Shown: positions 1,289-33,223 of the stretch, one piece after another
Layout: each line of letters starts with the position of its first letter
Numbering within the stretch: position 1 is the first letter of the stretch
Assembly (NCBI GenBank): GCA_017545185.1
Contig: JAFWQJ010000075.1
Span: 1 to 36,524 of the forward strand
Direction: 5' to 3'
Length of the DNA: 36,524 nucleotides
Source of the DNA: Oscillospiraceae bacterium
GTDB taxonomy: Bacteria > Bacillota > Clostridia > Oscillospirales > Ruminococcaceae
The notes under the pieces: generated by a model
What the model was told of the DNA's origin: nothing
What the model saw: only the letters and a program-made list of their open reading frames with translations
The model's database searches: none
Translations under genes and position numbers: made by a program

Positions 1289-1307
1289 CATACCAAACAG
1301 ATAGGAG
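1289..1307 (+). promoter_or_regulatory. Putative Rrf2/CymR-type operator, cysK copy
   Basis: The element CATACCAAACAGATAGGAG begins exactly five bases after the -10 box and so covers the transcription start. Near-identical elements lie at the same spacing upstream of the 2-oxoacid oxidoreductase operon (33205-33223) and paaK (30251-30269). The core CC-N9-GG is an imperfect dyad. Rrf2-family regulators such as CymR control cysteine genes in Firmicutes, and an Rrf2 gene lies at 27203-27637. Assigning that regulator to this site is inference. Confidence 0.6.
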
Positions 1308-1435
1308 TTATGGGTAAACCTAGGAGGGCTGTCGGATATGAAACGATGTTGATCGCGGATGACTGTTCAAATACAAACCCCGCGCATATGATAATCAAGA
1401 ATCAACTGATAAAAATTGAAAAGGAGCGTATTCAC

Positions 1436-2362
1436 ATGAGCATTTACAAGAACATTACCGATCTGATCGGCGGTACGCCGCTGCTGGAGCTGGTTCACAC
1501 CGAGGAGGCGAATCAGCTGGAAGCAACCGTTCTGGGCAAGCTGGAGTATTTCAATCCGGCCGGCTCGGTCAAGGACAGAGTCGCCGCAGCAATGATCGAC
1601 GACGCAGAAGAAAAGGGACTTCTGAAGCCGGGCAGCGTCATCATTGAGCCGACATCGGGCAACACCGGTATCGGTCTGGCCTCTGTCGCAGCATCCCGCG
1701 GCTACCGCCTGATCATCACCATGCCGGAGACCATGAGCGTCGAGCGCCGCAACCTGATGAAGGCTTACGGCGCAGAGCTGGTGCTCACCGAGGGCGCCAA
1801 GGGCATGAAGGGCGCGATCGCCAGAGCAGAGGAGCTTGCCGCGGAGATCCCGGGCAGCTTCATTCCGTCGCAGTTCACGAACCCGGCGAGCCCTGCCGCA
1901 CATCAGCGGACGACCGGTCCGGAGATCTGGAAGGACACCGAGGGCAAGGTCGATATCTTCGTCTCGGGCGTCGGCACCGGCGGCACGATCAGCGGCGTCG
2001 GCGGCTATCTGAAATCGCAGAACCCGGATGTGAAGATCGTTGCAGTTGAGCCGAAGGGCTCCCCGGTGCTCTCCGAGGGCGTTGCGGGCAAGCACGGCAT
2101 TCAGGGTATCGGCGCAGGCTTTGTGCCGGAGACACTGAACACCGATATTTACGATGAGATCATCACCGTCACGAATGAGGATGCTTACGTGACCGGCAAG
2201 GCTGTTGCACGCAGCGAGGGCGTTCTGGTCGGTATTTCCTCCGGCGCGGCTGTCTGGGCAGCGATCCAGCTTGCAAAGCGTCCGGAGAACAAGGGCAAGA
2301 CCATTGTTGCGCTGCTGCCGGATACCGGCGAGCGTTACCTCTCCACCCCGATGTTTGAGTGA
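1436..2362 (+). CDS. cysK: Cysteine synthase A (O-acetylserine sulfhydrylase)
   Basis: The enzyme makes cysteine from O-acetylserine and sulfide with pyridoxal phosphate in the cytoplasm. The 308-residue length is standard. The PLP lysine lies in NPAGSVKDR, the phosphate-binding loop is [11 protein letters not shown], and the substrate loop is [13 protein letters not shown]. The chosen ATG has AAGGAG about 10 bases upstream and gives the usual N-terminus [19 protein letters not shown]. The frame stays open upstream to an ATG at 1310, but the SD there is too close and the extra 42 residues do not resemble the family. The gene is a single transcription unit with its own promoter, operator and terminator. 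The shared operator suggests sulfur- or cysteine-dependent control. A second CysK/CBS-like paralogue is at 34752-35663. Confidence 0.95.
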
Positions 2363-2404
2363 TTGGGCAGCGCGCATAGATAGTTCTGGAATTTACCTCC
2401 GTAC

Positions 2405-2454
2405 AGGCAGCGTTCTGTCTCTGATCTGCAAGAGACAGGGCGCTGCCTTTTTTT
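2405..2454 (+). terminator. Rho-independent terminator of cysK
   Basis: A long hairpin pairs AGGCAGCG and CTGTCTCT with AGAGACAG and CGCTGCCT, with a small internal mismatch, and is followed by seven T. It lies 42 bases after the cysK stop. Confidence 0.9.
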
Positions 2455-2537
2455 GGAGCGCTGCGGCCAATACTGCACAAAATCATCAATTATTGCGGTG
2501 CGTTTCTCATTTCTTGCGACAAATTTCCGGATTTCAA

Positions 2538-2566
2538 TTGACTTCCCCTGCGGATTGTGTTACAAT
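2538..2566 (+). promoter_or_regulatory. Sigma-A promoter of pfp
   Basis: TTGACT at 2538-2543 and TACAAT at 2561-2566 are separated by 17 bases. The predicted start lies about 50 bases before the pfp start codon. Confidence 0.8.
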
Positions 2567-2624
2567 ACAACTTAGGAGCCGCGATATGCGGCACATGACA
2601 ACTACCGAAAAAAGGAGTCACGGA

Positions 2625-3839
2625 ATGAATATTGCAGTCGCGCAGTCAGGCGGTCCGACCTGTGCCATCAACGCATCACTCGTCGGCGTGTTCAGAGAAT
2701 CCCTGAAGGAACCGGAGATCGACGCGATCTTCGGCTCGGTCAACGGCATCGAGGGTCTGATCCAGAATCATCTCATCGACCTGAAAACACTGATCTTCAC
2801 CAATGACGACATGGAGCTGCTCCGGCAGACGCCCTCCACGGTACTCGGTTCCTGCCGCTATAAGCTGCCGGACTGGCACGAGGACGATTCCGTCTACCGG
2901 AAGATCACGGATACGCTGAAGCAGCGGCAGATCGGCGCTTTCTTCTACATCGGCGGCAATGACTCCATGGACACCGTGCAGAAGCTTTCCGCGTATTTCC
3001 GGGAGCAGGAGATCGGCGTCAGGGTCATCGGCATCCCCAAGACCATTGACAACGACCTCTGCGTCACCGACCATACGCCGGGCTTCGGCTCCGCGGCAAA
3101 ATATGTCGCCACGACCATGCAGGAGATCATCCGCGACAGCTCCGTTTACAGCATTCCCTCCGTCACGATCGCAGAGATCATGGGCAGACACGCAGGCTGG
3201 CTGACCGCCTCCGCAGCGGTGCTGCACAAGCTCGGAGAGGCCGCCCCGCATCTGATCTATGTGCCGGAGGCGGAATTCTCGCTGGAAAAATTCATGCGGG
3301 ATGTCCGCAGCGAAATGGCCAAGCACAAGGCCGTGATCGTCGCTGTCTCCGAGGGCATCGAGGTGCCGGAGGGCGTACAGTCCGGCGTGGTCGATAACTT
3401 CGGGCACAAGTATCTGTCCGGCATCGGCAGTTATCTGGAACGGGCCGTCCGCAGCGAGATCGGCTGCAAGGTGCGCTCCATTGAGCTGAACGTCATGCAG
3501 CGCTGCTCGTCGCATCTCTGCTCCCGCACGGATATCGACGAATCCGAGGCGATCGGTGCGGCGGGTGTCCGCTGTGCGCTGCGCGGCGAGACCGGTAAGG
3601 TCATGGTATTCCGCCGCCTGCACGATATGCCGTACACCGTGATGATCGGGACGGCGGATGCGTCCGAGGTCGCAAACAAGGAGAAATCCCTGCCGCGCTC
3701 GTTTATCAATGCAGCGGGCAACAACATCACCGAGGAAGCCCTCCGCTACTTCATGCCGCTGATCCAGGGTGAGCTGGTCATCCAGATGAACCACGGCATC
3801 CCGGCACATTTCACGATCCAGGAATCTCTGCTGAAATAA
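2625..3839 (+). CDS. pfp: 6-phosphofructokinase, predicted PPi-dependent type
   Basis: This enzyme phosphorylates fructose 6-phosphate to fructose 1,6-bisphosphate in glycolysis. The 404-residue protein starts at an ATG preceded by AAAGGAG and begins MNIAVAQSGGPTCAINASL. The phosphoryl-donor site reads GGNDSMDT (ATP enzymes have GGDGS), and the next motif is PKTIDND (ATP enzymes have PGTIDND). The Asp in place of the second Gly and the Lys before Thr are the residues known to favour pyrophosphate over ATP in this family, so PPi dependence is likely. The fructose-phosphate motif MGRHAGWL is present. It is monocistronic with its own promoter and terminator. PPi-based glycolysis is common in anaerobic Clostridia. 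The donor is inferred from these residues only. Confidence 0.9.
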   Translation: MNIAVAQSGGPTCAINASLVGVFRESLKEPEIDAIFGSVNGIEGLIQNHLIDLKTLIFTNDDMELLRQTPSTVLGSCRYKLPDWHEDDSVYRKITDTLKQRQIGAFFYIGGNDSMDTVQKLSAYFREQEIGVRVIGIPKTIDNDLCVTDHTPGFGSAAKYVATTMQEIIRDSSVYSIPSVTIAEIMGRHAGWLTASAAVLHKLGEAAPHLIYVPEAEFSLEKFMRDVRSEMAKHKAVIVAVSEGIEVPEGVQSGVVDNFGHKYLSGIGSYLERAVRSEIGCKVRSIELNVMQRCSSHLCSRTDIDESEAIGAAGVRCALRGETGKVMVFRRLHDMPYTVMIGTADASEVANKEKSLPRSFINAAGNNITEEALRYFMPLIQGELVIQMNHGIPAHFTIQESLLK

Positions 3840-3842
3840 CAC

Positions 3843-3879
3843 AAAGCCCCCGTGCACTTCGCCGCTGCACGGGGGCTTT
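3843..3879 (+). terminator. Rho-independent terminator of pfp
   Basis: A 14-bp perfect stem (AAAGCCCCCGTGCA with its complement) has a 9-base loop and begins 3 bases after the pfp stop. Its symmetric A/T flanks may also let it act on transcripts arriving from the minus-strand gene at 3973. Confidence 0.88.
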
Positions 3880-3972
3880 CTTATGGTAGTGGAAAAGAGA
3901 AAGGGTAAATTCACACATCATCGGAGGCGGCAGGGGTCGCCGCCTTCGGTCAGAGGGATTCGCGAAAAAACA

Positions 3973-4902
3973 TTACAGTGCATTCACATAGCCGTCACGG
4001 ACAGTGTTGCCGTCATGGCAAAGTCCGCTGCCGGAGTAGTCGATCATGTGATCGCAGAAGATCCAGTAATCAGAACCGTTCACTTCCCCGCTGCCGTCCC
4101 AGTCTGCTGCAGCTTTGACAAAGCCCTCATTCTCATTGGAACGGAAGTGGTTGTAGCAGATTGCGGACATCTCAGCACCGTCAGCCTTGCAATCAAAGGA
4201 AACGCTGCCGGAAGCACTGGAATAATAGAAGCTGTCACCGTCCAGGGAGACATAGGAATCACCGTTTGCATCACCGGCTTTGATCGGGCGTGCTACATAC
4301 TGGAAGTACCATGCCTTACCGCTGTTGTTGAAGGACTTATTGGACACTTTGTAGGAATAGGTCTTATTGTATCTGATGTAGCCGTTTTCATCGACTTCGC
4401 AGGCCCTGATGGTGCCGTTGGTCACCTTGGTGATGAAGATGGTCTTTAAGGTACTGCCGTACTTCACAGTGACCTGATCACCGATGCGCGGGATATAACG
4501 GAAGTAGTTGTAGGCCGAGGAGCTGGTCACTTCCTTCATTTCCATAAAGTTAGAAGTGTTGTACACATATCTTGCGACCTTTCTTGCAAATGCCTTACCG
4601 TCAGACACGTTGGCACCGTGGCCGAGACCGCTGTAATTGCCCTTCTGGAAACCGGTCTTGCAGGTCTGTCCCCAGATCTCCTTGCGGGTCTCAAAGCTGT
4701 AGCTGTTCCATTTGACATTTGCCTTTGTGCCGTAGCAGCCGCTCAGGTAGGTCGTGATGTTGTTCACATACTCGTAGCCTTCGCAGGTTCTCGTCGGAAC
4801 CGATGTGTAGGTGGCTGCCGATGCCGTGATTGCCTGTGCTGCGCTGATTGCGGTGATCGCAGCCATCGCCGCTGCTGCGATCTTGGTCTTTCTGAGTTTC
4901 AT
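3973..4902 (-). CDS. Secreted protein with degenerate CHAP-like domain and C-terminal dockerin-like module
   Basis: The 309-residue protein begins MKLRKTKIAAAAMAAITAI, a classical signal peptide ending near SAA. AGGTGAAAG precedes this ATG, which is why the upstream in-frame ATG at 4932 was not used. Residues about 60-215 resemble ruminococcal CHAP-like cysteine amidohydrolase/peptidase domains in layout (RIGDQV, then TIFITKV, then IRYNKTYSY). The expected catalytic Cys before GFA is Gly in SDGKAFA, and the His before the IFITK strand is Lys, so it looks inactive. The C-terminus has two dockerin-type calcium loops, GDANGDSYVSLDGD (degenerate) and ADWDGSGEVNGSDYW (good). A cell-surface or cellulosome-type location is inferred. 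The gene stands alone with its own promoter. Confidence 0.75.
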   Translation of the reverse strand: MKLRKTKIAAAAMAAITAISAAQAITASAATYTSVPTRTCEGYEYVNNITTYLSGCYGTKANVKWNSYSFETRKEIWGQTCKTGFQKGNYSGLGHGANVSDGKAFARKVARYVYNTSNFMEMKEVTSSSAYNYFRYIPRIGDQVTVKYGSTLKTIFITKVTNGTIRACEVDENGYIRYNKTYSYKVSNKSFNNSGKAWYFQYVARPIKAGDANGDSYVSLDGDSFYYSSASGSVSFDCKADGAEMSAICYNHFRSNENEGFVKAAADWDGSGEVNGSDYWIFCDHMIDYSGSGLCHDGNTVRDGYVNAL

Positions 4903-4944
4903 TTCTTTCACCTCATCTAAATATTTGCACACCCGTCTGCGTTT

Positions 4945-4962
4945 TGCGCATCCGAATGCGCA
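4945..4962 (-). promoter_or_regulatory. Perfect hairpin at the 5' end of the dockerin-protein mRNA
   Basis: TGCGCAT and ATGCGCA form a 7-bp perfect stem around a 4-base loop. It starts essentially at the predicted transcription start set by the promoter at 4970-4998. A 5'-terminal stem-loop of this kind usually protects mRNA from decay, or it could be an operator. Its function here is inferred. Confidence 0.5.
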
Positions 4963-4969
4963 TGTTCAG

Positions 4970-4998
4970 ATTATACCACAAGTTGAAATTTGTGTCAA
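4970..4998 (-). promoter_or_regulatory. Sigma-A promoter of the dockerin-like protein gene
   Basis: On the minus strand, consensus TTGACA (4998-4993) and TATAAT (4975-4970) are separated by 17 bases. The resulting leader is about 60 bases. Confidence 0.9.
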
Positions 4999-4999
4999 T

Positions 5000-5450
5000 A
5001 TAATTGAATGTATTTTAATAATTATTTGATTATAATTTATTTGCAAAATTGAATATTGTAGGCGTGAAGCTGAAATTTCTCTTAATAATATACGTTTTGT
5101 TGTTTCCGATGCGAGAAAATATCAAAACAATCTGATTTTTCAGTGCTATGGCGATATTGCGAAATGAAACATTATTTAATCATAACATTTTCAAGCAGGG
5201 ACTAAAAAATTCAAACATAGTATGCAGGAAATTTACTGCAAAATTGCAAACAAAACAACTTTCATATCCTATGACCGAAGATGTATTGTTCGGCAGCCAT
5301 ATTATTACGAACTGTAAATTAAACATCCTTAACAATCAGCACGGAATTACGAATTGTAAATATCATGCTATTTAGCAGAACGCATCCGGTTCGGATACCG
5401 TTCCGGTTCCCGTTTTGCATCCCCGAAAGATTTTTCCGATTTTTTCAAAA
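5000..5450. other. AT-rich intergenic region with short direct repeats, no convincing gene
   Basis: This stretch is far poorer in GC than its surroundings. It holds two copies of a 16-base direct repeat, ATTACGAACTGTAAAT at 5304-5319 and ATTACGAATTGTAAAT at 5346-5361. A 75-codon frame at 5148-5375 has no ribosome binding site and no recognisable motif. The region may be decayed or transferred DNA between a surface-protein gene and a tRNA gene, or simply a long regulatory spacer. Confidence 0.6.
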
Positions 5451-5456
5451 TAGGGG

Positions 5457-5485
5457 TTGACAAACGGGAGAAAATGTGCTATAAT
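5457..5485 (+). promoter_or_regulatory. Promoter of tRNA-Val
   Basis: TTGACA at 5457-5462 and TATAAT at 5480-5485 are separated by 17 bases. The tRNA begins 12 bases after the -10 box. The T-run, CAAAA and AGGGG before the -35 box match those before the cysK promoter. Confidence 0.92.
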
Positions 5486-5497
5486 AGATTCTGTTGT

Positions 5498-5571
5498 GAG
5501 GGTGTAGCTCAGTTGGTTAGAGTACCTGCTTGACATGCAGGGGGTCATCGGTTCAAGTCCGCTCATCCTCA
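5498..5571 (+). tRNA. tRNA-Val (anticodon GAC)
   Basis: The 74-base cloverleaf has acceptor arms GAGGGTG and CATCCTC (one G-T pair), discriminator A, D arm GCTCAGTTGGTTAGAGT, and anticodon stem CCTGC/GCAGG around loop TTGACAT (anticodon GAC at 5532-5534). The T loop is TTCAAGT. The T stem ATCGG/CCGCT has a T-C mismatch at its second pair. The CCA end is not encoded. The gene has its own promoter and terminator, so it is a single-gene transcript. Confidence 0.95.
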
Positions 5572-5580
5572 TCCTAACCG

Positions 5581-5608
5581 AAAGCATCTGCTGAAAAGCA
5601 GATGCTTT
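5581..5608 (+). terminator. Terminator of tRNA-Val
   Basis: A 12-bp perfect stem AAAGCATCTGCT/AGCAGATGCTTT with a GAAA loop is followed by T residues, 9 bases after the tRNA. Confidence 0.93.
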
Positions 5609-5651
5609 TTTCATGTCTGAGAAATCCGCTTTTTCACAGCAGAAATATAAA

Positions 5652-5684
5652 ATACCCGCACAGCATCCTCAGCCGTGCGGGTAT
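5652..5684 (-). terminator. Terminator of the VanY-type gene
   Basis: On the minus strand, ATACCCGCAC pairs with GTGCGGGTAT across a 13-base loop and is followed by TTTTAT. It lies 8 bases after the stop codon of the carboxypeptidase gene. Confidence 0.85.
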
Positions 5685-5692
5685 CTTGTTGT

Positions 5693-6940
5693 TCAGCTTG
5701 CGTACTTGGAGTCGATCTGGAAGTATTCCTCCATCGTCAGGCCGCTGTCCGTGATCTTCTTCGCCCAGTCCTTGCCGACATAGCGGATATGCCACGATTC
5801 GTACTGATAGCCCGTGATGTTCTCCTTGCCCTTCGGATAACGGAGAATGAAGCCGTATTTCCAGCAGTTCTCCGCGAGCCACTTGGCTTCGGGCGTATTG
5901 TCGAAGCCGGAGCCGGCGCAGTTGATGTCGATCGCCAGACCCGTCTGGTGCTCGGAGTGACCCGGCCGCGCGGAATAGGTATCCGCAGCCGCCTGCCCGT
6001 CGCGGGCACAGTAGTTCTTGTAGAGCTGATCCTGCGTTTCGTAGGAGCGGAAATCGGAGACGGATTTCAGCGTCAGTCCGGCAGCGGCTGCATCCTTCAG
6101 CATCTCGTCATAGGCCGCCTTGGTCTCCGGCGTCATCGCACCGGGGTTGTATTCCTTCGGCAGCGGATAGCTCTTGTTGACGATCATCAGCCCCTGAATG
6201 TAGGTGATGCCGTCCTTGATCTCGATATCCGTGCGCTTGCCGTTCGCATCGACTGCGGTCGTATAGGTCACAGCCGGATCGGTGCTGCCGGGTGCGGTCG
6301 TGGGCGGTGCCGTCGTCGTGACAGCCGTGGTCGTGACCGGCGCGGTCACCTTGACCTTGACCTCCGCAAAGACAGCAGGATTATTGACCGAGGAAACCTT
6401 GATCGTGCAGTTGCCCGTTCCGACCGGCTTGATCCGGCCGAGGTCATCGACAGTCGCGACATTCTTGTCAGAGGTTTCCCATTTTTCGGAGACGTCCTTT
6501 GCGTCAGCCGGTTCCATTGTCACCAGCGGCATCACAGTGTCATCGCCGACCTTCATCACCGCTTCGTAGAACGAAAGCTTGATGCCGGTCACGGTGCCCG
6601 GTGCAAGGGTCGTTTCCGCAGTCACAGTTGTTTCGGTTTCCGTCGTCGTCACCTCCGTGACGTCGGTTCCCGCGCCGGAGATATCGGTGACCTCTGCGAC
6701 CGGCGGCGTGTTTTCGCCGGTGTTCGGCTTATCCTGCGAGAAGATCAGCCAGAGCCCGCCGCCGATTCCGGCTGCGGCGAGCAGCAGCAGACCGAGCAGC
6801 GGCGCGGATGCTGCGGATTTCTTCTTCCGTTTGTTTTGCGCAGGTCTCTGCCCGTTCGGCGCGGGTCTGCGGCCTGCATTCGGATTGCGGCTGCCGTTCG
6901 CGGGACGACCGCCGTTCGGATTGCGTTTTGCTTCAGCCAT
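5693..6940 (-). CDS. Membrane-anchored D-alanyl-D-alanine carboxypeptidase (VanY/M15B) with BIG2-like domain
   Basis: The 415-residue protein probably trims the D-Ala end of peptidoglycan stems outside the membrane. It starts MAEAKRNPNGGRPANG after AGAAAGGA. A basic Pro/Asn/Arg-rich cytoplasmic tail of about 48 residues leads to one transmembrane segment (SAAPLLGLLLLAAAGIGGG region). A Thr-rich linker, a BIG2-like domain (VTGIKLSFYEAVMKVGD to VKVKVT) and a second Thr/Pro linker (TTTAPPTTAPGSTDP) follow. The C-terminal M15 domain carries the zinc motif SEHQTGLAID and the later ESWHIRY, so the catalytic residues are intact. It has its own promoter and terminator. The Thr/Pro linkers are typical of ruminococcal surface proteins. 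Confidence 0.92.
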   Translation of the reverse strand: MAEAKRNPNGGRPANGSRNPNAGRRPAPNGQRPAQNKRKKKSAASAPLLGLLLLAAAGIGGGLWLIFSQDKPNTGENTPPVAEVTDISGAGTDVTEVTTTETETTVTAETTLAPGTVTGIKLSFYEAVMKVGDDTVMPLVTMEPADAKDVSEKWETSDKNVATVDDLGRIKPVGTGNCTIKVSSVNNPAVFAEVKVKVTAPVTTTAVTTTAPPTTAPGSTDPAVTYTTAVDANGKRTDIEIKDGITYIQGLMIVNKSYPLPKEYNPGAMTPETKAAYDEMLKDAAAAGLTLKSVSDFRSYETQDQLYKNYCARDGQAAADTYSARPGHSEHQTGLAIDINCAGSGFDNTPEAKWLAENCWKYGFILRYPKGKENITGYQYESWHIRYVGKDWAKKITDSGLTMEEYFQIDSKYAS

Positions 6941-6998
6941 TTTGTTTATCCTTTCTGTTATTATATACAGAACATGCAGTTCTGTTGCGTACTTTTTT

Positions 6999-7027
6999 AT
7001 TATAGCACACTCAGTTGAAAAATGCAA
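6999..7027 (-). promoter_or_regulatory. Promoter of the VanY-type gene (TTGCAT -35 type)
   Basis: On the minus strand, TTGCAT (7027-7022) and TATAAT (7004-6999) are separated by 17 bases. The predicted leader is about 50 bases. Confidence 0.75.
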
Positions 7028-7129
7028 CGGAATACAGAAAATTTCAACTAAATTTAATAGCAGGTAGAACCGGCACCCGTTTTTTGTACGGGCAGCAGCG
7101 GCGAAAAGGCTTTTATGCAGTTCGCCCAT

Positions 7130-7157
7130 TGTGTTTTTCGGCAGAATGTGATATAAT
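7130..7157 (+). promoter_or_regulatory. Promoter of the HD hydrolase gene
   Basis: TATAAT at 7152-7157 has a weak -35 box TTGTGT at 7130-7135, 16 bases away. The start lies near 7164, which places the ATG at 7162 at the transcript end and supports the ATG at 7192 as the real start codon. Confidence 0.65.
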
Positions 7158-7191
7158 AGCCATGAACCAAACCGATGAAGGAGGAATCCGC

Positions 7192-7797
7192 ATGACCGAT
7201 CAGGAGCTCAGCCTGAAGAAAGAGGAATTTCTCAGCATTTACAGGGAAAACATCACCCGCAAGGGCGCCGATAAGCTGCTGGAATATCTGCTTTCCGAGG
7301 AGAGCGATTTCTTCACCGCGCCCGCATCCACGCGCTATCACGGCGCATACGAGGGCGGCCTGCTGGTGCACTCGCTGAATGTGTACCACAATCTGACGGA
7401 ATATCTGGCGCGCAGCCGCTGCAGCGAGGTCTTTCACATTCCGGAGTATTCCGCGGAAAGCATCGCGATCTGTGCGCTGCTGCATGATCTCTGCAAGATG
7501 AATTTCTATACCGTCGATTACCGCAATGCCAAGAATGAAAAGGGCGTCTGGGAAAAGGTGCCCTATTACAAGATCGACGACCGCCTGCCCTACGGACACG
7601 GCGAAAAATCCGTGTTCCTGATCCAGTTCTTCATGCACCTGCGCAAGGAGGAAGCCATGGCGATCCGCTGGCACATGGGCTTCTCCGGCCCGGAGGATCA
7701 GAACACCGTCGGCAGAGCACTGGAAATGTACCCGCTGGCCTTCGCGCTGCATGTCGCGGACATGGAGGCAAGCTATTTCTTAGAGGGCACTGTCTGA
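7192..7797 (+). CDS. HD-domain metal-dependent phosphohydrolase
   Basis: This is a 201-residue cytoplasmic protein of the HD superfamily; its substrate cannot be told from sequence. The ATG has AAGGAGGA nine bases upstream, and the first residues are MTDQELSLKKEEFLSIY. The metal motif is present as GGLLVHSLNV (first His), CALLHDLCKMNFY (the HD pair), YGHGEKS and later IRWHMGF. It precedes a GH13 gene by 112 bases with no terminator between, so the two may share a transcript. The spacer holds a GAAGGCG/CGCCTTC hairpin. Related small HD proteins occur widely in Clostridia and some phages as uncharacterised hydrolases. Confidence 0.88.
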   Translation: MTDQELSLKKEEFLSIYRENITRKGADKLLEYLLSEESDFFTAPASTRYHGAYEGGLLVHSLNVYHNLTEYLARSRCSEVFHIPEYSAESIAICALLHDLCKMNFYTVDYRNAKNEKGVWEKVPYYKIDDRLPYGHGEKSVFLIQFFMHLRKEEAMAIRWHMGFSGPEDQNTVGRALEMYPLAFALHVADMEASYFLEGTV

Positions 7798-7909
7798 ACG
7801 CGCATATCTCCGGAAGAATCCGGCAAGATACATATATATGACCCGAAGGCGTGCGTCTGTCCGCCTTCCCGCACCTGACCCTCTGACAGATACAAGGAGT
7901 GTGACTGAA

Positions 7910-9616: not shown

Positions 9617-9703
9617 GTATCGCTTCGCGATGATTTAGAATGGGGCTCCGCCCCAAACCCTGCCAAAGGGACACTGTCCCTTTGGAATCCCGTTATGAAT
9701 AAC

Positions 9704-9739
9704 AAAAAGGACGCTGATGATGAAATCGGCGTCCTTTTT
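9704..9739 (+). terminator. Bidirectional terminator after the GH13 gene
   Basis: AAAAAGGACGC pairs with GCGTCCTTTTT, and the stem extends inward with TGAT/ATCG pairs. It is symmetric, so it can also stop the minus-strand lipoprotein transcript. It begins the repeat-like block described at 9740-9902, and a sister hairpin lies at 22046-22079. The 9617-9703 stretch before it holds two short hairpins, GGGGC/GCCCC and CCAAAGGGACA/TGTCCCTTTGG. Confidence 0.85.
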
Positions 9740-9902
9740 TCATTTTCAGTTGTGCTTGCGGCGGGCTTCAGCGCTGGGAGCGATAACTTCAAAGAAGCCG
9801 CCCCGCGGCGTGTGCTGCGATTGTTGGGAGAGCTTCGCTAACCGCCCCCGGAGGGAACTGCCCGGTTTCGCTGTGCGAAACGTGGGGCTCCCCGCCGCCC
9901 GC
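9740..9902. repeat. Dispersed intergenic repeat, copy A
   Basis: Blocks shared in order with copy B (22083-22219) are CGGCGGGCTTCAG, TGGGAG, CAAAGAAGCCGC, GCGGCGTGT, TTGGGAGAGCTTCGCT and ACCGCCCCCGGAGGGAA, then GGGGCTCCCCGC. Both copies follow a GGACGC...GCGTCC terminator and end at the 3' end of a minus-strand gene. A fragment (CCCGCGGGGGCTCCCCGCC) also lies near 1215. No coding capacity was seen. Confidence 0.75.
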
Positions 9903-24121: not shown

Positions 24122-24151
24122 GCACGAAGCCAGCCACATGGGCTCCGGGGC

Positions 24152-24206: not shown

Positions 24207-24235
24207 TTGACAATTCCGGCAGGATGCCGTATGAT
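24207..24235 (+). promoter_or_regulatory. Promoter of the XRE-family regulator gene
   Basis: TTGACA at 24207-24212 and TATGAT at 24230-24235 are separated by 17 bases, about 32 bases before the start codon. Confidence 0.82.
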
Positions 24236-24267
24236 AAAGCTATCAAGACAGACAGGAGGTTGATCCT

Positions 24268-25748: not shown

Positions 25749-25760
25749 ACGATCGTTCGT

Positions 25761-27002: not shown

Positions 27003-27048
27003 GGGGATACCTCCTGTCAGACGGTGTTTTCGCGGTGAAACTGATTAT

Positions 27049-27077
27049 ATTATATCATGCGGCGCCGGAAAATGCAA
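27049..27077 (-). promoter_or_regulatory. Promoter of coaBC (TTGCAT -35 type)
   Basis: On the minus strand TTGCAT (27077-27072) and TATAAT (27054-27049) are separated by 17 bases, about 46 bases before the start codon. Confidence 0.75.
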
Positions 27078-27171
27078 TGATTTCAGAACGAAAAATCGAC
27101 CCGGAAAGCGTCCGGAGAGCATGACGGACACGGAGACTGCCGCGGATGCCGCATTCAGCTGCATAAGAAAA

Positions 27172-27199
27172 AAAGCACAGACCTGCCGGTCCGTGCTTT
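27172..27199 (-). terminator. Terminator of the Rrf2 gene and paaK-aminotransferase cluster
   Basis: On the minus strand AAAGCACGGACC pairs with GGTCTGTGCTTT (one G-T pair) around GGCA, followed by a T-run. It lies 3 bases after the stop codon. Confidence 0.92.
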
Positions 27200-27202
27200 G
27201 TA

Positions 27203-27637
27203 TCATATCGTATAACAGCCGTGCGATTCAAACGCATTGCACTGTGCAAGCAGCTCCGCGAGCGTCAGTCTGTCCATATACTCGCGCATGTGCCGGTTGA
27301 TCTGATCCCACAGGCAGACCTTGAGATTCATGCGGATGCCGTCCTCCGCATCCGGCTCCGATACATCGGCCAGAATACTGCTGTCCAGCGCATTGAGCAC
27401 ATCGGCGATCCGGATACCGGAAGCAGCCCGCGTCAGGGAATAGCCGCCGTTTTTTCCTTTGGAGGCAGAGATCAGATCCGAGCGGCGCAGCTGAAGCAGA
27501 ATCTGCTCCAGATATTTCGGGGAAATGCGCTGCCGCTTTGCGATCTCGGCGGTCACGGCCTTTTTGCCCTGTTCATGCTGGATCGCAATGTCCGCGATCG
27601 CCGCAAGGCCGTATTCTGCTTTCGTATTGAATCTCAT
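27203..27637 (-). CDS. Rrf2-family transcriptional regulator (CymR/IscR-like)
   Basis: The 144-residue DNA-binding protein begins MRFNTKAEYGLAAIADIAI after AGGAGG. The winged helix shows ISPKYLEQILLQLRRSDLI and SKGKNGGYSLTR, the usual Rrf2 recognition region. The cysteines (KVCLWD, AQCNAF, HGCYTI) do not form the clustered three-Cys pattern of IscR, so an Fe-S cluster is uncertain and a CymR-like cysteine-sensing role is as likely. It starts 22 bases after the aminotransferase and ends the cluster. The shared operator at cysK, paaK and the oxidoreductase operon is its most likely target, which would make it autoregulated through the paaK promoter. Target assignment is inferred. Confidence 0.92.
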   Translation of the reverse strand: MRFNTKAEYGLAAIADIAIQHEQGKKAVTAEIAKRQRISPKYLEQILLQLRRSDLISASKGKNGGYSLTRAASGIRIADVLNALDSSILADVSEPDAEDGIRMNLKVCLWDQINRHMREYMDRLTLAELLAQCNAFESHGCYTI

Positions 27638-27659
27638 TGACTGCCTCCTTTTCCGTGTT

Positions 27660-28826
27660 TTATGCGCGCGGCATTTTGGTTCTGATCGCGCTCAGGCGTT
27701 CGAGTGCCTCATTCAGTGTTTCGTTCTTCTTCGCAAAATGCAGCCGGATATACCGGTTTTCGGGCTCTTTGAAGAAGCTGGAACCCGGCACCGCGCCGAC
27801 GCCGACATGCTCCGCGAGCTTCTCGCAGAAGTCAAGGTCGCTCGCATAGCCGTACTCCGACACATCAAGCAGAATGTAATACGCGCCCTCCGGCACGGTA
27901 TGCGAAATGCCGATGCGGTCAAGTCCTTTGAGGAACAGGTCGCGCTTTTCGGTGTATTCCGCCTGCAAGCCGCGGTAGTAATCGTCGCCGAATTTCAGTC
28001 CGGTGACGGCTGCTTCCTGCAGGGGTGCCGCCGCGCCGACCGTCAGGAAGTCGTGCACCTTTTTCACGGTATCAATGATCTCCGGCGGCGCAATGACGTA
28101 GCCCAGACGCCAGCCGGTAATGGAATACGTTTTTGACAGCGACGAGCACGAGATCGTCCGCTCCCACATGCCCGGAAGCGATGCCATATAGGTATGGGTA
28201 TGCGGCGCGTAGAGGATGTGCTCGTACACCTCGTCCGTAATGACAAAGGTGTCGTATTTCTTCGCAAGATCGGCAATAATGAGCAATTCCTCACGGGTAA
28301 AGACCTTGCCGCAGGGGTTCGACGGATTACAGAGGATCAGCGCCTTCGGGTGCTGCCTGAATGCCGCTTCGAGCACATCTGCATCAAAGGTAAATGCGGG
28401 CGGCACGAGCGGCACATAGATCGGCTCCGCACCGGAAAGGATCGTATCTGCACCGTAATTCTCGTAGAACGGGGAAAAGACGATCACCTTGTCGCCGGGA
28501 TTCGTCACGCTCATCATCGCGGCCATCATCGCTTCGGTGCTGCCGCAGGTCACGACGATCTCGCCGTTCGGGTCGATCGGTCTGCCCATGAAATGCGCCT
28601 GCTTTGCGGCAAGTGCCTCGCGAAAATTCTGTGCGCCCCATGTGATCGAATACTGATGAAAGTCCTCTTTCGTTACTTCGGCAAGGCGGTCGAGGATCTC
28701 CTTCGGCGGGTCAAAATCCGGGAAGCCCTGCGAAAGATTCACCGCGCCGTACTGATTGGAGATCCTTGTCATCCGGCGGATGACGGAATCGGTGAAATTT
28801 GCGGTTCTGCTGGATAAAGTCGGCAT
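27660..28826 (-). CDS. Class I/II aminotransferase (PLP), probably aromatic or branched-chain amino acids
   Basis: The 388-residue fold-type I enzyme moves amino groups between amino acids and 2-oxo acids. Motifs include NLSQGFPDFDPPKEIL, TCGSTEAMMAAMMSV, LCNPSNPCGKVF, TDEVYEHILY and the PLP lysine in SSLSKTYSITGWRLGY, ending with the arginine in RYIRLHFAK. This is the family of kynurenine/methionine/aromatic aminotransferases, so the exact substrate is not readable from sequence. AGGAG precedes the ATG. It sits behind paaK with a hairpin between and directly before the Rrf2 gene, so its job is probably to join the 2-oxo acids handled by the adjacent ferredoxin oxidoreductase to amino acids. 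Confidence 0.92.
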   Translation of the reverse strand: MPTLSSRTANFTDSVIRRMTRISNQYGAVNLSQGFPDFDPPKEILDRLAEVTKEDFHQYSITWGAQNFREALAAKQAHFMGRPIDPNGEIVVTCGSTEAMMAAMMSVTNPGDKVIVFSPFYENYGADTILSGAEPIYVPLVPPAFTFDADVLEAAFRQHPKALILCNPSNPCGKVFTREELLIIADLAKKYDTFVITDEVYEHILYAPHTHTYMASLPGMWERTISCSSLSKTYSITGWRLGYVIAPPEIIDTVKKVHDFLTVGAAAPLQEAAVTGLKFGDDYYRGLQAEYTEKRDLFLKGLDRIGISHTVPEGAYYILLDVSEYGYASDLDFCEKLAEHVGVGAVPGSSFFKEPENRYIRLHFAKKNETLNEALERLSAIRTKMPRA

Positions 28827-28843
28827 ATTCTTCTCCTAAAACT

Positions 28844-28875
28844 CCGGTGTACCGGACAGCCGCCCGGTACACCGG
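28844..28875 (-). terminator. Hairpin between paaK and the aminotransferase, partial terminator
   Basis: CCGGTGTACCGG and CCGGTACACCGG form a 12-bp perfect stem with an 8-base loop. On the minus strand it is followed by AGTTTT and then directly by the aminotransferase ribosome binding site. It probably lowers rather than stops expression of the two downstream genes. Confidence 0.7.
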
Positions 28876-28881
28876 TTATCA

Positions 28882-30222
28882 TTATATTGTGTAGTCAAGC
28901 TTGCGCTCGTCAATGATGCGCTTGGACTTGTGCTCGGAGCGGGTGTTCAGGCCGCCGTCCGGATGCACGACCACTCTTGCGGGCTTGACGCCGATTCTGG
29001 CCTTGAGTGCTGCGGAAAGCTCTGCTGCGACGGTCTCGTCGTCCTTCGGGTTGCCGGCATTCTTCTCGACCTCGACCGCATACTTGTTCGTGAAGTCCTT
29101 TTCAAAGATGCGGATGAGGTATTCGCCGGTGATATCGTGCTGCTCGCGGATGACCGCTTCAATGTCGCTCGGGAACACATTGACGGCGGACACGATGAAC
29201 ATATCGTCCTTTCTGCCGAGAATGTGGATTCTGCCGTGGGTTCTGCCGCACTTGCACGGTGTCTGGTCAATGCGGCCGATATCGCCGGTGCGGAAGCGGA
29301 TGAGCGGTCTTGCGTGCTTGCGCAGCGTCGTGAACACCAGCTCGCCGGTCTCACCGGGCGGCAGGATCTCGCCGGTATGGAGATCAACGGTTTCCACGAG
29401 AATGTGGTTCTCTGCGATATGCAGGCCGTCGTGATATTCGCACTGTGCGGCGCACGCGCCGAAAATGTCGGACAGACCGTAGAAGTCAAAGACCTCTGCG
29501 CCCCAGATATCCTCAATGGCCTTTCTGGTCGCGTCGATCGAGCCGCCGAGCTCGCCCGCGACGATGATCTTCTTGATGTTGAAATCCTTTTTCGGGTCGT
29601 AGCCGGATTTCAGAGCCTTTTCACCGAGCTGCCATGCGTAGGACGGGGACGTCCAGATGACGGTCGGCTGATAGGTTTTCAGGATGAACAGCAGGCGTTC
29701 GCTCGGGAGCGTACCGCCCCAGATGCAGAGCGCACCGAGGTTCTGCGCACCGATGACGTCCGGGCCGCCGACATACAGCGAGAAATTCAGCGCATGCACG
29801 TAGCGGTCATTCGGCCGCATACCGATCTGCCAGAACCAGCGGCTCTCGGTCTCCTGGAACTCGTCGAAGTCCTTTTTGGTGAACGGGCTCATGGTCGGCA
29901 CGCCGGTCGAGCCGGACGAGGTCGAGATAAAGACGACGTCCTCTTCCGGAACGGCAGCGAGCTCACCGAGGAACGAGCCGACGCCCTGCGTATCGCGCTG
30001 CGTTTTCTTGTTGATGAACGGAAACTTCTGCAGATCGGAAAGCTGCTTGATGTCCGACGGCTTCACGCCTGCCTCATCGAAGCTGCGCTTATAATACGGT
30101 GCATGATCGTAAGCGAACTGCACGATCTCCTGCAGGTCGGCAAGCTGCCGCTTTTCCAGTTCTGCACGGGGGAGCGTTTCGAGCTCCTCATCCCAGTATT
30201 TGTTGTTGACATCTCTGCCCAT
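28882..30222 (-). CDS. paaK: Phenylacetate-CoA ligase family (PaaK-type) AMP-forming acyl-CoA ligase
   Basis: The enzyme activates a carboxylic acid with ATP and CoA to acyl-CoA. The 446-residue protein starts MGRDVNNKYWDEELETLPR behind TTTAGGAGG. Family signatures are SSGSTGVPTMSPFTKKD (P-loop), FDFYGLSDIFGACAAQCEY, GETGELVFTTLRKHARPLIRFRTGD and the C-terminal GRKDDMFIVSAVNVFPSDIE. The substrate may be phenylacetate, indoleacetate or a branched-chain acid. It lies 116 bases after the four-subunit 2-oxoacid oxidoreductase, has its own promoter with the shared operator, and is followed by an aminotransferase and the Rrf2 regulator. In archaea and rumen anaerobes this gene set links organic acids and amino acids. 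Confidence 0.95.
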   Translation of the reverse strand: MGRDVNNKYWDEELETLPRAELEKRQLADLQEIVQFAYDHAPYYKRSFDEAGVKPSDIKQLSDLQKFPFINKKTQRDTQGVGSFLGELAAVPEEDVVFISTSSGSTGVPTMSPFTKKDFDEFQETESRWFWQIGMRPNDRYVHALNFSLYVGGPDVIGAQNLGALCIWGGTLPSERLLFILKTYQPTVIWTSPSYAWQLGEKALKSGYDPKKDFNIKKIIVAGELGGSIDATRKAIEDIWGAEVFDFYGLSDIFGACAAQCEYHDGLHIAENHILVETVDLHTGEILPPGETGELVFTTLRKHARPLIRFRTGDIGRIDQTPCKCGRTHGRIHILGRKDDMFIVSAVNVFPSDIEAVIREQHDITGEYLIRIFEKDFTNKYAVEVEKNAGNPKDDETVAAELSAALKARIGVKPARVVVHPDGGLNTRSEHKSKRIIDERKLDYTI

Positions 30223-30250
30223 TGTTTGTATCCTCCTAAATAATCGAGTA

Positions 30251-30269
30251 ATTCTATCGGATTGGTATG
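30251..30269 (-). promoter_or_regulatory. Putative Rrf2-type operator, paaK copy
   Basis: On the minus strand the element is CATACCAATCCGATAGAAT. It starts five bases after the -10 box, as in the cysK and oxidoreductase promoters. It is the most diverged of the three copies, with one half-site GG changed to GA. Confidence 0.55.
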
Positions 30270-30274
30270 GTTTT

Positions 30275-30303
30275 ATTATACACGATTCTTTCGTGTTTGT
30301 CCA
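30275..30303 (-). promoter_or_regulatory. Promoter of the paaK-aminotransferase-rrf2 cluster
   Basis: On the minus strand TGGACA (30303-30298) and TATAAT (30280-30275) are separated by 17 bases. The stretch TTGTATTGGACAAACA around the -35 box is identical to that of the oxidoreductase operon promoter. Confidence 0.85.
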
Positions 30304-30337
30304 ATACAAGCGTTTTATCGGACGCGATAGCCTTTCC

Positions 30338-31231
30338 TTATAACTGAAAATTCTTTTCGATGAATGCCCACTTTTTGTCGCGGGATTCGATGACCGTTTT
30401 GATATCGTCCAGATCAAGATGCTTAAAGCGCCCCTGCTTTTTCAGATATGCTTCGACGCTCGTAAAATCCTTCGGCTTATGATTCAGCGTAAATGCGCCG
30501 TTTTCGTATTCCGCCAGATACCAGAGGCCGCAGTCCACGACCTCCTTCGCGATCTCGACAGTCTCATCCGGCGCAATGCCCCAGCCTGTCGGACACGGCG
30601 CAATCACATGAATATACTTTGTACCCTGGATCGACGCGGCTTTCTCGACCTTTCTGATGAAGTCCGCGAGATAGCCGACGCTGGCGGTCGCTGCATAGGG
30701 AATATCATGCGCTGCCGCGATCTCAAACATATTCTTCTTCGGCCGCAGATTGCCGTGGATATTCGCACCGGCGGGCGTCGTGGTCGTGCGCGCGCCGAAC
30801 GGCGTCAGACCGCTTTTCTGGATACCGGTGTTCATATAGGCTTCGTTGTCGTAGCAGATATAGATGATGTTGTCATTGCGGTCGATCGCGCCGGAAAGCG
30901 CCTGAATGCCGATATCCGCGGTGCCGCCGTCGCCCGCAAAGCCGACCGCGGTGAAATCGCTGTATCCTCTTGCGCGGAGCCCCGCCTCAATGCCGGTCAG
31001 CATGGATGCGGTTCCCGCAAATGTCGAGATGATCGAATTGTTCGAAAAGCAGAGCTGCGGGAAATTGAATCCGACCGCCGACATACATCCTGCCGGCAGC
31101 ACGGAGACCGCATTCTGCCCGAGCACCTTCAGTGCCGCTCTGACGGCAAGTGCGCCGCCGCAGCCTGCACATGCCTTGTGCCCGTAGAAATATTCATCGC
31201 GGGAAAGCTTTTCAGCCGTTTGATTCGCCAT
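30338..31231 (-). CDS. 2-oxoacid:ferredoxin oxidoreductase, beta subunit (TPP-binding)
   Basis: The 297-residue beta subunit holds thiamine diphosphate and probably one Fe-S cluster. The N-terminus has YFYGHKACAGCGGALAVRAAL, and the TPP motif is GFAGDGGTADIGIQALSGA followed by NEAYMNTGIQKSG. The later TPTRT-equivalent region is SGLTPFGARTTTTPAG. The ATG at 31231 is preferred because GGAGGTG is 6-7 bases upstream; a GTG nine bases earlier is less likely. It overlaps the alpha gene by 20 bases. The operon order gamma-delta-alpha-beta is that of porGDAB/vorGDAB systems. Confidence 0.95.
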   Translation of the reverse strand: MANQTAEKLSRDEYFYGHKACAGCGGALAVRAALKVLGQNAVSVLPAGCMSAVGFNFPQLCFSNNSIISTFAGTASMLTGIEAGLRARGYSDFTAVGFAGDGGTADIGIQALSGAIDRNDNIIYICYDNEAYMNTGIQKSGLTPFGARTTTTPAGANIHGNLRPKKNMFEIAAAHDIPYAATASVGYLADFIRKVEKAASIQGTKYIHVIAPCPTGWGIAPDETVEIAKEVVDCGLWYLAEYENGAFTLNHKPKDFTSVEAYLKKQGRFKHLDLDDIKTVIESRDKKWAFIEKNFQL

Positions 31232-32393
31232 TGCCGTCACCTCCGATCCCGATAAAATTCACATGCTCTGTGCCGTCCTGAATATCCGCAAACATCTGCG
31301 CAATATCGCCGGCAGAGATATTCCTGCCGCCCAGTCCCCCGATGAAGTTATAGCCGGGGATCCGGACGCCTGCCTTCTGCAGCGCGGAATTGACATTCGT
31401 ATAGACCGTGCCCTCATTGCCGAAAGAGATATCCTTTTCCAGCACGCCGAATGCCTTTGCATTTTGCAGCGCCGCGGCGATCTCCGCATTCGGGAACGGC
31501 CGCATATAGCGGATGCGGACAACGCCCGCCCGGATGCCCTGTTCGCGGAGCCGGTCGGCGGTCTCGCGGCAGAGCCCCGCAATGCTGCCGAGCGTCACGA
31601 GGATATAGTCGGCATCCTCCGTGCGGTAGCTGTCCAGCAGGCCGGAATACCGTCTGCCGAAGATCTCCGCGAATGCGTCCTCTGTTTCTGTGACAACTTC
31701 CTTTGCTGCCAGCATTCCCCGATGCGCCTTGTACTTGAAAATAAAATTGGTATCCGGTCCTGCCGAAAACGCCATGTTCTTCGGATCGTCAAAATCAATG
31801 CGGTTCCCGGTCACGTAGGGCGGCAGGAATCTGTCTGCCTGCGCCTGCTCCGGGATCTCGACCGTTTCGTAGGTATGCGTCAGGACAAAGCCGTCCAGAT
31901 TGACCATGACCGGTGTGGATACGCGGCTGTCCTCCGCGATGCGCCAGCTCATCAGCGCAAGGTCAAGTGCCTCCTGCGCATTCTCCGCGTAGACCTGGAT
32001 CCAGCCGCTGTCGAGCTGCGAAAGGCTGTCGCGCTGGTCACCGTAGATGTTCCACGGCAGCGCGGTCGAGCGGTCGGCGTTCATCATGACGATCGGGAAC
32101 CGTCCGCCGGATGCGTAATAGAGACATTCCGCCATATACAGCAGACCCTGCGAGGATGTTGCCGTAAATGCCCTTGCGCCGGATGCGCTCGCACCGATCG
32201 CACAGGACAGCGCGGAATGCTCCGATTCCACATGGATGAACTCCGATTTGAGGCTGCCGTCCTCGACCATTTCCGAGAGTCGCTCGACGACGATCGTCTG
32301 CGGCGTGATCGGATACGCGGAGATGACGTCGGGCTTTGCAAGGCGGATGCCCTCTGCAAATGCCTCGTTGCCGGATAAAAACCGTTTGCTCAT
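31212..32393 (-). CDS. 2-oxoacid:ferredoxin oxidoreductase, alpha subunit
   Basis: The 393-residue alpha subunit carries the pyrimidine-binding and transketolase C-like domains. Typical stretches are AYPITPQTIVVERLSEMV, FIHVESEHSALSCAIGAS, TATSSQGLLYMAECLYYASG, SGWIQVYAENAQEALDLAL and NLDGFVLTH. These are close to both pyruvate (PorA) and 2-ketoisovalerate (VorB) enzymes, so the substrate is not settled by sequence. The context with paaK and an aminotransferase favours branched-chain or aryl 2-oxo acids. It overlaps the delta gene by 4 bases (ATGA), so translation is coupled. Confidence 0.95.
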   Translation of the reverse strand: MSKRFLSGNEAFAEGIRLAKPDVISAYPITPQTIVVERLSEMVEDGSLKSEFIHVESEHSALSCAIGASASGARAFTATSSQGLLYMAECLYYASGGRFPIVMMNADRSTALPWNIYGDQRDSLSQLDSGWIQVYAENAQEALDLALMSWRIAEDSRVSTPVMVNLDGFVLTHTYETVEIPEQAQADRFLPPYVTGNRIDFDDPKNMAFSAGPDTNFIFKYKAHRGMLAAKEVVTETEDAFAEIFGRRYSGLLDSYRTEDADYILVTLGSIAGLCRETADRLREQGIRAGVVRIRYMRPFPNAEIAAALQNAKAFGVLEKDISFGNEGTVYTNVNSALQKAGVRIPGYNFIGGLGGRNISAGDIAQMFADIQDGTEHVNFIGIGGDGNGESNG

Positions 32394-32683
32394 TTGTGCT
32401 CCGCCTCCGTTCTGATCGCGCCGAGCCTGCAGATCTTTGCGCAGATGCCGCAGCCCTTGCAGAAATCGTAATCAATAACGGCCTTGCCGTTCCGGATCGC
32501 GATCACGCCGTCCGGACAGTACAGATAGCACTGTTCGCAGCCGACACATCGTCCGGTATCAATGACCGGCCGGATGCTCCGCCAGCCGCTGTTGACCGAT
32601 ACCAGATAGCCCGCTTCAAACGCGGTCGCCTCCGGGATCTCCGCGGCGGAAAAGGTTTTCTGTTCTCTGATGTACGGTCTCAT
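32390..32683 (-). CDS. 2-oxoacid:ferredoxin oxidoreductase, delta (ferredoxin-like) subunit
   Basis: The 97-residue subunit has two complete [4Fe-4S] motifs, CVGCEQCYLYCP and CKGCGICAKIC, and carries electrons from the catalytic subunits to ferredoxin. It overlaps its neighbours by 4 bases on each side, showing tight translational coupling. The need for two clusters fits control by an Rrf2-type regulator tied to sulfur or Fe-S supply. Confidence 0.96.
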   Translation of the reverse strand: MRPYIREQKTFSAAEIPEATAFEAGYLVSVNSGWRSIRPVIDTGRCVGCEQCYLYCPDGVIAIRNGKAVIDYDFCKGCGICAKICRLGAIRTEAEHK

Positions 32684-33195
32684 TTCTGCACCGCCTCTCT
32701 TGCCAGCTTCACCGCGCCGGTATTGCGCGCCTGAATTTTCTGCGGCATATAGCCTTCGATCGCGCTGACTGCCTGTTCCTCTGTGATGTAATCCGACAGC
32801 GCGGACACGATGCCGAGCATCACGGTATTGACCGTCGGCAGATGATATTCCGCCGCGACCGCTTCGCCGTCAAAGGTGAAGGTATCGGGGATCGGCGTTT
32901 TGGAATTGACGATGATCCTGCCGCCTTCTTTCAGCTGTGCCTGCAAAGCCGGTGCATACAGCGTATCATCGAGCACGACGATGAAATCTGCTTTTTCGGT
33001 CTGACTGCGGTCAAGCACGGGCTTTTCATCGAGCTTCGTGAATGCCCTGACCGGTGCGCCGCGGCGTTCCGGACCGAAGGACGGAAAGCTGAGCGCATAA
33101 TGTGCATCATCGTTCGCGGTATATGCCGCACCGAACAGCTTTGCTGCCGTAAATGCGCCCTGTCCGCCGCGTCCGAGCCAAAGGATCTCTTTCAT
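32680..33195 (-). CDS. 2-oxoacid:ferredoxin oxidoreductase, gamma subunit
   Basis: The 171-residue gamma subunit binds CoA in this enzyme family. The N-terminus MKEILWLGRGGQGAFTAAKLFG and the stretch YALSFPSFGPERRGAPVRAFTK are diagnostic. It is the first gene of the four-gene operon. Its ribosome binding site AGGAG overlaps the end of the shared operator, so a bound repressor would cover both the transcription start and the leader DNA. Confidence 0.96.
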   Translation of the reverse strand: MKEILWLGRGGQGAFTAAKLFGAAYTANDDAHYALSFPSFGPERRGAPVRAFTKLDEKPVLDRSQTEKADFIVVLDDTLYAPALQAQLKEGGRIIVNSKTPIPDTFTFDGEAVAAEYHLPTVNTVMLGIVSALSDYITEEQAVSAIEGYMPQKIQARNTGAVKLAREAVQK

Positions 33196-33204
33196 AGTCT
33201 CAAT

Positions 33205-33223
33205 CTCCTACCTGTTTGGTATG
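33205..33223 (-). promoter_or_regulatory. Putative Rrf2-type operator, oxidoreductase operon copy
   Basis: On the minus strand the element is CATACCAAACAGGTAGGAG, one base different from the cysK copy, and again starts five bases after the -10 box. Its final AGGAG doubles as the ribosome binding site here, but not at cysK, so the likeness is not explained by translation signals. Confidence 0.6.

Follow-up and report, generated by a model that had tools for sequence, protein, structure and literature searches.

A putative CymR-like sulfur operator shared by cysteine synthase and ferredoxin-linked 2-oxoacid operons in Ruminococcus, with a cysteine-triad Rrf2 protein as its probable reader

The CymR regulon is described from Bacillus subtilis and Staphylococcus and was proposed for Clostridium acetobutylicum, where CAC2236 lies beside cysK (CAC2235), as given in the excerpts of PMC3828012 and PMC4845359 used here. 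In B. subtilis, CymR works in complex with CysK and senses O-acetylserine (PMC3828012, excerpt). The excerpted text of PMC4845359 tags no 2-oxoacid oxidoreductase as part of the CymR regulon, and a search limited to open PubMed Central (PMC) articles found no paper joining CymR or Rrf2 sulfur control with ferredoxin-dependent 2-oxoacid genes. The window analyzed here is the whole stretch of 36,524 nucleotides of contig JAFWQJ010000075.1 (positions 1 to 36,524; assembly GCA_017545185.1, Oscillospiraceae bacterium). It carries a 19-bp element at three promoters, those of cysK (cysteine synthase A), of the porCDAB cluster for a 2-oxoacid:ferredoxin oxidoreductase, and of an operon with a paaK-like ligase gene and an aminotransferase gene. 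The element probably serves a CymR-like sulfur regulon of Ruminococcus as operator, and its reader is probably an Rrf2 protein with a cysteine triad, encoded elsewhere in this genome on contig C28. Both the sulfur targets and the pairing of rrf2 with cysK are of an already known kind, as in CymR systems. As far as could be told from the open PMC search, membership of the porCDAB and paaK operons is new, and so is a CymR-like role for a protein with a cysteine triad.

The predicted regulon is like that of CymR in having an Rrf2 protein and in its predicted targets, namely cysK, the O-acetylhomoserine sulfhydrylase gene, cystathionine-type genes and transporters. The C28 Rrf2 resembles clostridial CymR, and its gene adjoins cysK in many genomes (see below), as in C. 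acetobutylicum. Unlike in the CymR regulon, the predicted targets include porCDAB and paaK-aminotransferase, and the C28 Rrf2 has a cysteine triad of the iron-sulfur (Fe-S) type, whereas the CymR chains 2y75 and 3t8r are without the triad in the alignment. In IscR and NsrR such a cysteine triad binds an Fe-S cluster. Like these two proteins, the C28 Rrf2 has three spaced cysteines past the winged helix, known here from sequence; IscR chains are among its PDB matches, the best of which (4cic) is named only BadM/Rrf2 family. Unlike the gene for IscR, C28 rrf2 sits outside the suf operon in its own genome, and the predicted targets are sulfur amino acid and 2-oxoacid genes.

All three 19-mers that the earlier note had described are present exactly as placed (Table 1), and every one begins 5 bases past its -10 box (TATAAT for cysK, TATCAT for porC and TATAAT for paaK). 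Two further observations of that note, an identical 16-base -35 region in the porC and paaK promoters and an Rrf2 gene closing the paaK cluster after the aminotransferase gene, are likewise correct. The element approximates CATAYY-AAnnn-GATAKG, a putative imperfect dyad located at or just past the predicted transcription start. Four matches to the pattern at up to 3 mismatches were found in the window, against 0.47 expected. A genome-wide search (94 contigs, 3,606,466 bases) gave no exact match to CATACCAANCNGRTAGRA beyond these three sites. Allowing 2 mismatches raised the count to six, whereas the reversed pattern still had none. As this pattern was drawn from the three sites, the count is not independent; it is other species that provide independent evidence.

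A scan in which each species was represented by one genome yielded 80 named porA loci, most of them from Ruminococcus flavefaciens and rumen Ruminococcus metagenome-assembled genomes. These loci provided 76 porC and 60 paaK promoters, and loci L084-L109 yielded 21 cysK promoters, including that of the window; promoters with short upstream sequence, runs of N or identity below the floor were left out. Sites with at most one mismatch to CATAYYAANNNGATAKG are present in 44/76 porC, 35/60 paaK and 17/21 genus cysK promoters, compared with 0%, 0.25% and 0% of the respective shuffled promoters, so that the motif does occur in the orthologous promoters of related genomes. The identical position asserted in the earlier note holds for porC (48 of 53 sites) and paaK (47 of 49) at up to 3 mismatches, a level also reached by 8-12% of shuffles. 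The cysK promoters of the window's genus depart from it: 8 of 21 sites share this position and 12 of the remaining 13 begin 11-18 bases past the -10 box. Of 30 cysK loci from further genomes, a set without shuffle control, 25 carry a site with no more than one mismatch. A script placed 14 of these sites five bases and 11 zero bases past the -10 box, a spacing that is ambiguous, since those viewed by eye read TATAATATAAT, which fits both. In the alignments of promoters whose sites have no more than 2 mismatches (49 porC, 44 paaK), most site columns hold 1-2 bits, and most of those in the -35/-10 spacer 0.8 bits or less; a conserved site beside a drifting spacer supports a function of the element.

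The specificity of the element was assessed with stricter patterns. CATANNANNCNGATAGG without mismatches has 28 matches in 21/30 genus genomes, against 3 for the reversed controls; judged by place and context, 18 belong to cysK, 2 to paaK, and one each to porC, metY and a methyltransferase/cystathionine-lyase operon, with 5 elsewhere. CATACYAAANNGATAKG has 42 matches in 27/50 named genomes, against none for the reversed controls, and the loci fetched for 30 of them comprise 14 porC, 9 paaK and 4 cysK promoters and three genes for transporter substrate-binding proteins (one NlpA/MetQ-like, two NMT1-like). Both patterns were derived from porC, paaK and cysK sites, and the informative part of these counts is the scarcity of other matches. 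When 61 genomes were searched with the pattern, allowing one mismatch, 19 of them had matches, and the reversed pattern had 4; the loci fetched included cysK, porC, paaK and metY promoters, plus some in or before unrelated genes. One weaker site in the window's own genome (contig C27) precedes methyltransferase-like and cystathionine gamma-lyase-like genes, whose families were taken from relatives in G009. The predicted membership beyond the three window promoters covers metY, the cystathionine-lyase operon, the MetQ-like gene and the two NMT1-like genes. Judged from these sequences, the sites mark a sulfur regulon that includes ferredoxin-linked 2-oxoacid operons. A site was also seen in L217 (G003 C34:72589-72605), right after TATAAT and before a gene whose cysteine-rich product (MSTEHDKICRSCADCG...) has no known role.

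The element might instead be a feature of the transcription start or the 5' untranslated region (initial transcribed sequence, Shine-Dalgarno sequence or RNA element) and no operator at all. It does lie at +1, genome G016 keeps a site although no Rrf2 was found there, and its right end before porC (TAGGAG) doubles as the porC Shine-Dalgarno sequence, so that conservation of the right half at porC may be partly translational. However, in the window some 130 bases separate its end from the cysK start and some 30 from the paaK start, and it does not reach either Shine-Dalgarno sequence; it looks like a partial dyad, keeps to a set of sulfur genes and is seldom found in other places. In an Rfam scan covering six loci, the four matches were weak, fell below the gathering threshold and did not lie at the site. 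This explanation is considered very unlikely.

Three Rrf2 genes are present in the window's own genome: one on contig C28, one in the window, and one in the suf operon on contig C48, before mnmA. A tree of 67 distinct Rrf2 sequences has two clades (split 100/100). A C-X6-8-C-X5-C triad is found in 48/48 distinct sequences of the C28-type clade (C-X7-C-X5-C in the C28 protein itself) and in 0/19 of the window/SUF-type clade. The window Rrf2 is 63% identical to the SUF-operon Rrf2, has no triad, and misses the cut-offs for both CymR (73.7 of 195 bits) and IscR (93.9 of 207.55 bits). It was the repressor put forward in the earlier note for all three promoters, and it is encoded in an operon whose promoter has the site, belongs to the same superfamily, and has a clade relative beside cysK in G084. 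Orthologs at 80% identity or more are limited, however, to 3/30 genus genomes, the window's own included, and follow the aminotransferase gene in 2/53 named loci that extend past it, while the sites occur in dozens of species. Nor are the sites conserved together with this gene: they persist in G028, G010 and G073, where the sole Rrf2 above the Pfam cut-off is another one. On its distribution across genomes and loci the window Rrf2 was ruled out as the main regulator, and repression of all three promoters by it is unlikely. Of the single Rrf2 repressor proposed for cysteine and 2-oxoacid genes, the conserved site, the joint regulon and an Rrf2-type protein as the likeliest reader have stood; the choice of the paaK-cluster gene has not.

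The C28 type fits better as the likeliest reader, as far as gene distribution and neighborhood indicate. By Pfam score it is present in 49/50 named genomes and in 23/30 genus genomes, where none of the 16 with porC lacks it. It is the sole Rrf2 match in G028, G010, G073, G074, G076, G085 and G088, which have sites at cysK, porC or paaK. Its gene is the convergent neighbor of cysK in 21/29 genomes with both; the two lie apart on one contig in 2 and on different contigs in 6. It is the divergent neighbor of porC in L197, L204, L206 and L207 (gaps 259-264 bp), and the porC promoter of L204 reads TATAAT-5 nt-CATATTAAACATATATG. G100 has a C28-clade member with a long branch, whose gene precedes a serine acetyltransferase-like gene, upstream of a site-bearing MetQ-like gene. 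The half-site CMTANYAAAC lies between -35 and -10 in 16/49 C28-type rrf2 promoters (0.2% of shuffles), a count that omits one locus without upstream sequence, and suggests autoregulation in those species. Probably one regulator tunes cysteine and Fe-S 2-oxoacid genes, most likely one other than the adjoining window Rrf2.

It is also possible that a single family of operators is recognized by both Rrf2 clades, which would then share the regulon or divide it between them, with the window copy as a recent duplicate that adds feedback; this is held as a tentative alternative. YLEQI occurs in the helix-turn-helix region of both types, each clade has cysK neighbors, and G084 keeps porC and paaK sites in an assembly without the triad type. 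Related dyads at the genome's own metY promoter (CCTACTTAACCGATAGG, contig C18, L324 1332-1348, plus strand) and sufC promoter (CCTATTTATTCGATAGG, contig C48, L034 13091-13075, minus strand) align without gaps to the cysK site. Each of these dyads is nevertheless off the cysK site at 4 or more positions, and in several genomes with sites no Rrf2 other than the triad type was found.

Several observations weigh against a CymR-like operator read by the triad Rrf2. No site within 3 mismatches was found in 23/76 porC and 11/60 paaK promoters, some of them from R. flavefaciens strains. The dyad symmetry is modest, with 6 (paaK), 8 (cysK) and 10 (porC) of 17 positions self-complementary in the window and 10 in CATACCAAACAGATATG of paaK relatives. 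The half-site was not found in 33/49 C28-type rrf2 promoters, and the promoter of C28 rrf2 itself, viewed by eye, is without a clear site. G016 (96% complete) has a cysK site at 1 mismatch and no Rrf2 match, and the G084 assembly, with its porC and paaK sites, has a window/SUF-type Rrf2 adjoining cysK. A SUF-clade Rrf2 also lies beside a second cysK copy in G075, G078, G079 and G087, as seen from coordinates and score only. Because its members adjoin cysK in these five genomes, the SUF-like clade may share the site, and in some species a window/SUF-type Rrf2 may read it. The C28 Rrf2 is a member of the Rrf2 superfamily (PF02082, 141.7 bits; TIGR00738, 137 bits, cut-off 73). It misses the CymR (NF047409, 120.3 of 195 bits) and IscR (124.4 of 207.55 bits) cut-offs, and since both NCBIfam equivalog cut-offs are missed it is filed as a CymR-like variant, neither CymR nor IscR.

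Under the preferred reading of a CymR-like operator, a dimer of the triad Rrf2 bound to the site would block RNA polymerase at the start as long as the supply of sulfur/cysteine or Fe-S suffices. When supply becomes limiting the dimer would leave, and cysK, porCDAB and paaK-aminotransferase would be expressed together; metY, cystathionine lyase or metQ would join the response in some species. Cysteine synthesis and the Fe-S-rich, ferredoxin-using amino-acid route would then rise in step, and the window Rrf2 would be accessory, itself under the same operator. Repression and its signal are inferred from the position of the site and from the known relatives CymR, IscR and NsrR, and binding by the triad protein is predicted likewise. 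If true, this reading would couple sulfur assimilation to a ferredoxin-driven synthesis of amino acids that starts from phenylacetate or branched acids, compounds long known as growth factors of fiber-degrading rumen ruminococci. It would also make the regulator (the triad Rrf2), the sites and the targets open to experiment in cultivated strains, among them R. flavefaciens FD-1 and 007c.

A wider proposal, which is possible but taken as a whole rather doubtful, is that the Rrf2 carries an Fe-S cluster and acts as a joint sulfur/Fe-S gauge over cysK and metY, which serve sulfide assimilation, and over the low-potential, CO2-fixing route from rumen acids via porCDAB, paaK and aminotransferase, while leader open reading frames (ORFs) with Cys codons (Arg-Cys at cysK; ...NYRFGRM..C at metY) would attenuate the sulfur genes as a second layer. 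The cysK leader ORF of the window (Table 1) looks like a cysteine-codon leader peptide (attenuator). In the cysK leaders of L084-L104 and L340-L365, a short ORF with a Shine-Dalgarno sequence lies between the site and cysK and ends in Arg-Cys(-Cys); the peptides of relatives include MSGKKRCCG*, MDYLFSKRC* and MMMNKRRCC*. A script found Arg-Cys leader ORFs in 29/47 cysK leaders, against 0.5% of shuffles; this is an undercount, since the script cuts at the last TATAAT-like hexamer and misses ORFs that are readable by eye. The metY (O-acetylhomoserine sulfhydrylase) loci L310-L328, among them the own copy on C18 (L324), have a conserved leader ORF such as MSIRFPDLNRGNYRFGRMYRCFHI. RFGRM is found in 14/19 metY loci with upstream sequence (one locus was dropped before counting), variants in 4 more, and none in L328. 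A literature search in open PMC for the string RFGRM gave only matches that are unrelated, judged by their titles.

The porC and paaK promoters contain further conserved blocks, located, counting from the site start, at -38 to -29 (GGTATTGGACA) and at about -73 to -46 (TATAG...CTATAAC...ATAA). Blocks of the TATAG/CTATAAC type upstream of -35 were seen in the window at 33297-33269 (porC) and 30343-30324 (paaK), on the minus strand. The LysR protein whose gene lies near the por cluster probably binds them; since a pattern for this dyad fits only 19/49 porC and 8/44 paaK promoters, the LysR box is put forward as a suggestion. A LysR relative (at least 55% identity) is near the cluster in 43/67 loci with more than 2.5 kb before porC, and a LysR 64% identical lies beside triad rrf2-cysK in G067, two observations in favor of the LysR protein as reader of the +1 element. 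LysR activators bind upstream of -35. The distinct conserved blocks of the porC and paaK promoters lie in that region and were not seen by eye in cysK promoters, which keep the +1 site. As reader of the +1 site LysR is extremely unlikely, and it was ruled out on position.

Table 1. Features of the window (positions in the 36,524-nucleotide stretch)
Feature	Position	Strand	Basis
cysK promoter, -35 TTGACA and -10 TATAAT (1278-1283)	1255..1283	+	sequence and relatives
Operator-like site CATACCAAACAGATAGGAG at cysK transcription start	1289..1307	+	pattern match, conservation
Leader ORF ATG AAA CGA TGT TGA (MKRC*), Shine-Dalgarno about 1322-1328	1338..1352	+	sequence, relatives
cysK, cysteine synthase A	1436..2362	+	TIGR01139 456 bits, cut-off 351
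Rrf2 paralog, last gene of paaK operon, lineage-specific, SUF-like clade	27203..27637	-	PF02082 101 bits; tree
Class I/II aminotransferase	27660..28826	-	PF00155 221 bits
paaK-like phenylacetate/arylacetate--CoA ligase	28882..30222	-	AMP-binding, AMP-binding_C_2; TIGR02155 285 bits, below cut-off 646
Operator-like site CATACCAATCCGATAGAAT before paaK	30251..30269	-	pattern match, conservation
paaK promoter: upstream TTATAAGGAAAGGCTATCGC 30343-30324; TTGTATTGGACAAACA 30309-30294; -10 TATAAT 30280-30275	30275..30343	-	sequence, aligned promoters
porB-like beta subunit (thiamine pyrophosphate)	30338..31231	-	TPP_enzyme_C; PorB/VorB-type NCBIfam matches below cut-off
porA-like alpha subunit	31212..32393	-	POR_N and PFOR_II
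porD-like 2x[4Fe-4S] ferredoxin subunit	32390..32683	-	TIGR02179 87.9 bits, cut-off 60
porC-like gamma subunit, 2-oxoacid:ferredoxin oxidoreductase	32680..33195	-	TIGR02175 130.7 bits, cut-off 81
Operator-like site CATACCAAACAGGTAGGAG before porC, right end overlapping Shine-Dalgarno	33205..33223	-	pattern match, conservation
porC promoter: TGATAG...CTGATAG pair 33297-33269; -35 region TTGTATTGGACAAACA 33263-33248; -10 TATCAT 33234-33229	33229..33297	-	sequence; matching blocks information-rich in 49 aligned porC promoters
LysR regulator, candidate reader of upstream dyad	33810..34739	-	profile match
Second cysK-like gene (cysK2)	34752..35699	-	PF00291 256 bits

The porC, porD, porA and porB genes encode a 2-oxoacid:ferredoxin oxidoreductase of the Por/Vor type. 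Together with the ligase and aminotransferase genes they fit the activation of an arylacetic or branched acid with CoA, followed by reductive carboxylation and transamination, a sequence of steps that would yield an amino acid from such an acid. Rumen ruminococci reportedly make amino acids from isovalerate and phenylacetate (Allison, 1962 and 1965, by title as cited in PMC7356843). The gene set, with its CoA ligase, 2-oxoacid:ferredoxin oxidoreductase and aminotransferase, fits such routes, which are known here from genes alone. Upstream of the minus-strand por cluster are genes for an energy-coupling factor (ECF) S component, the LysR regulator and cysK2. Relatives of cysK2 (at least 70% identity) are found near the por cluster in 48/80 loci.

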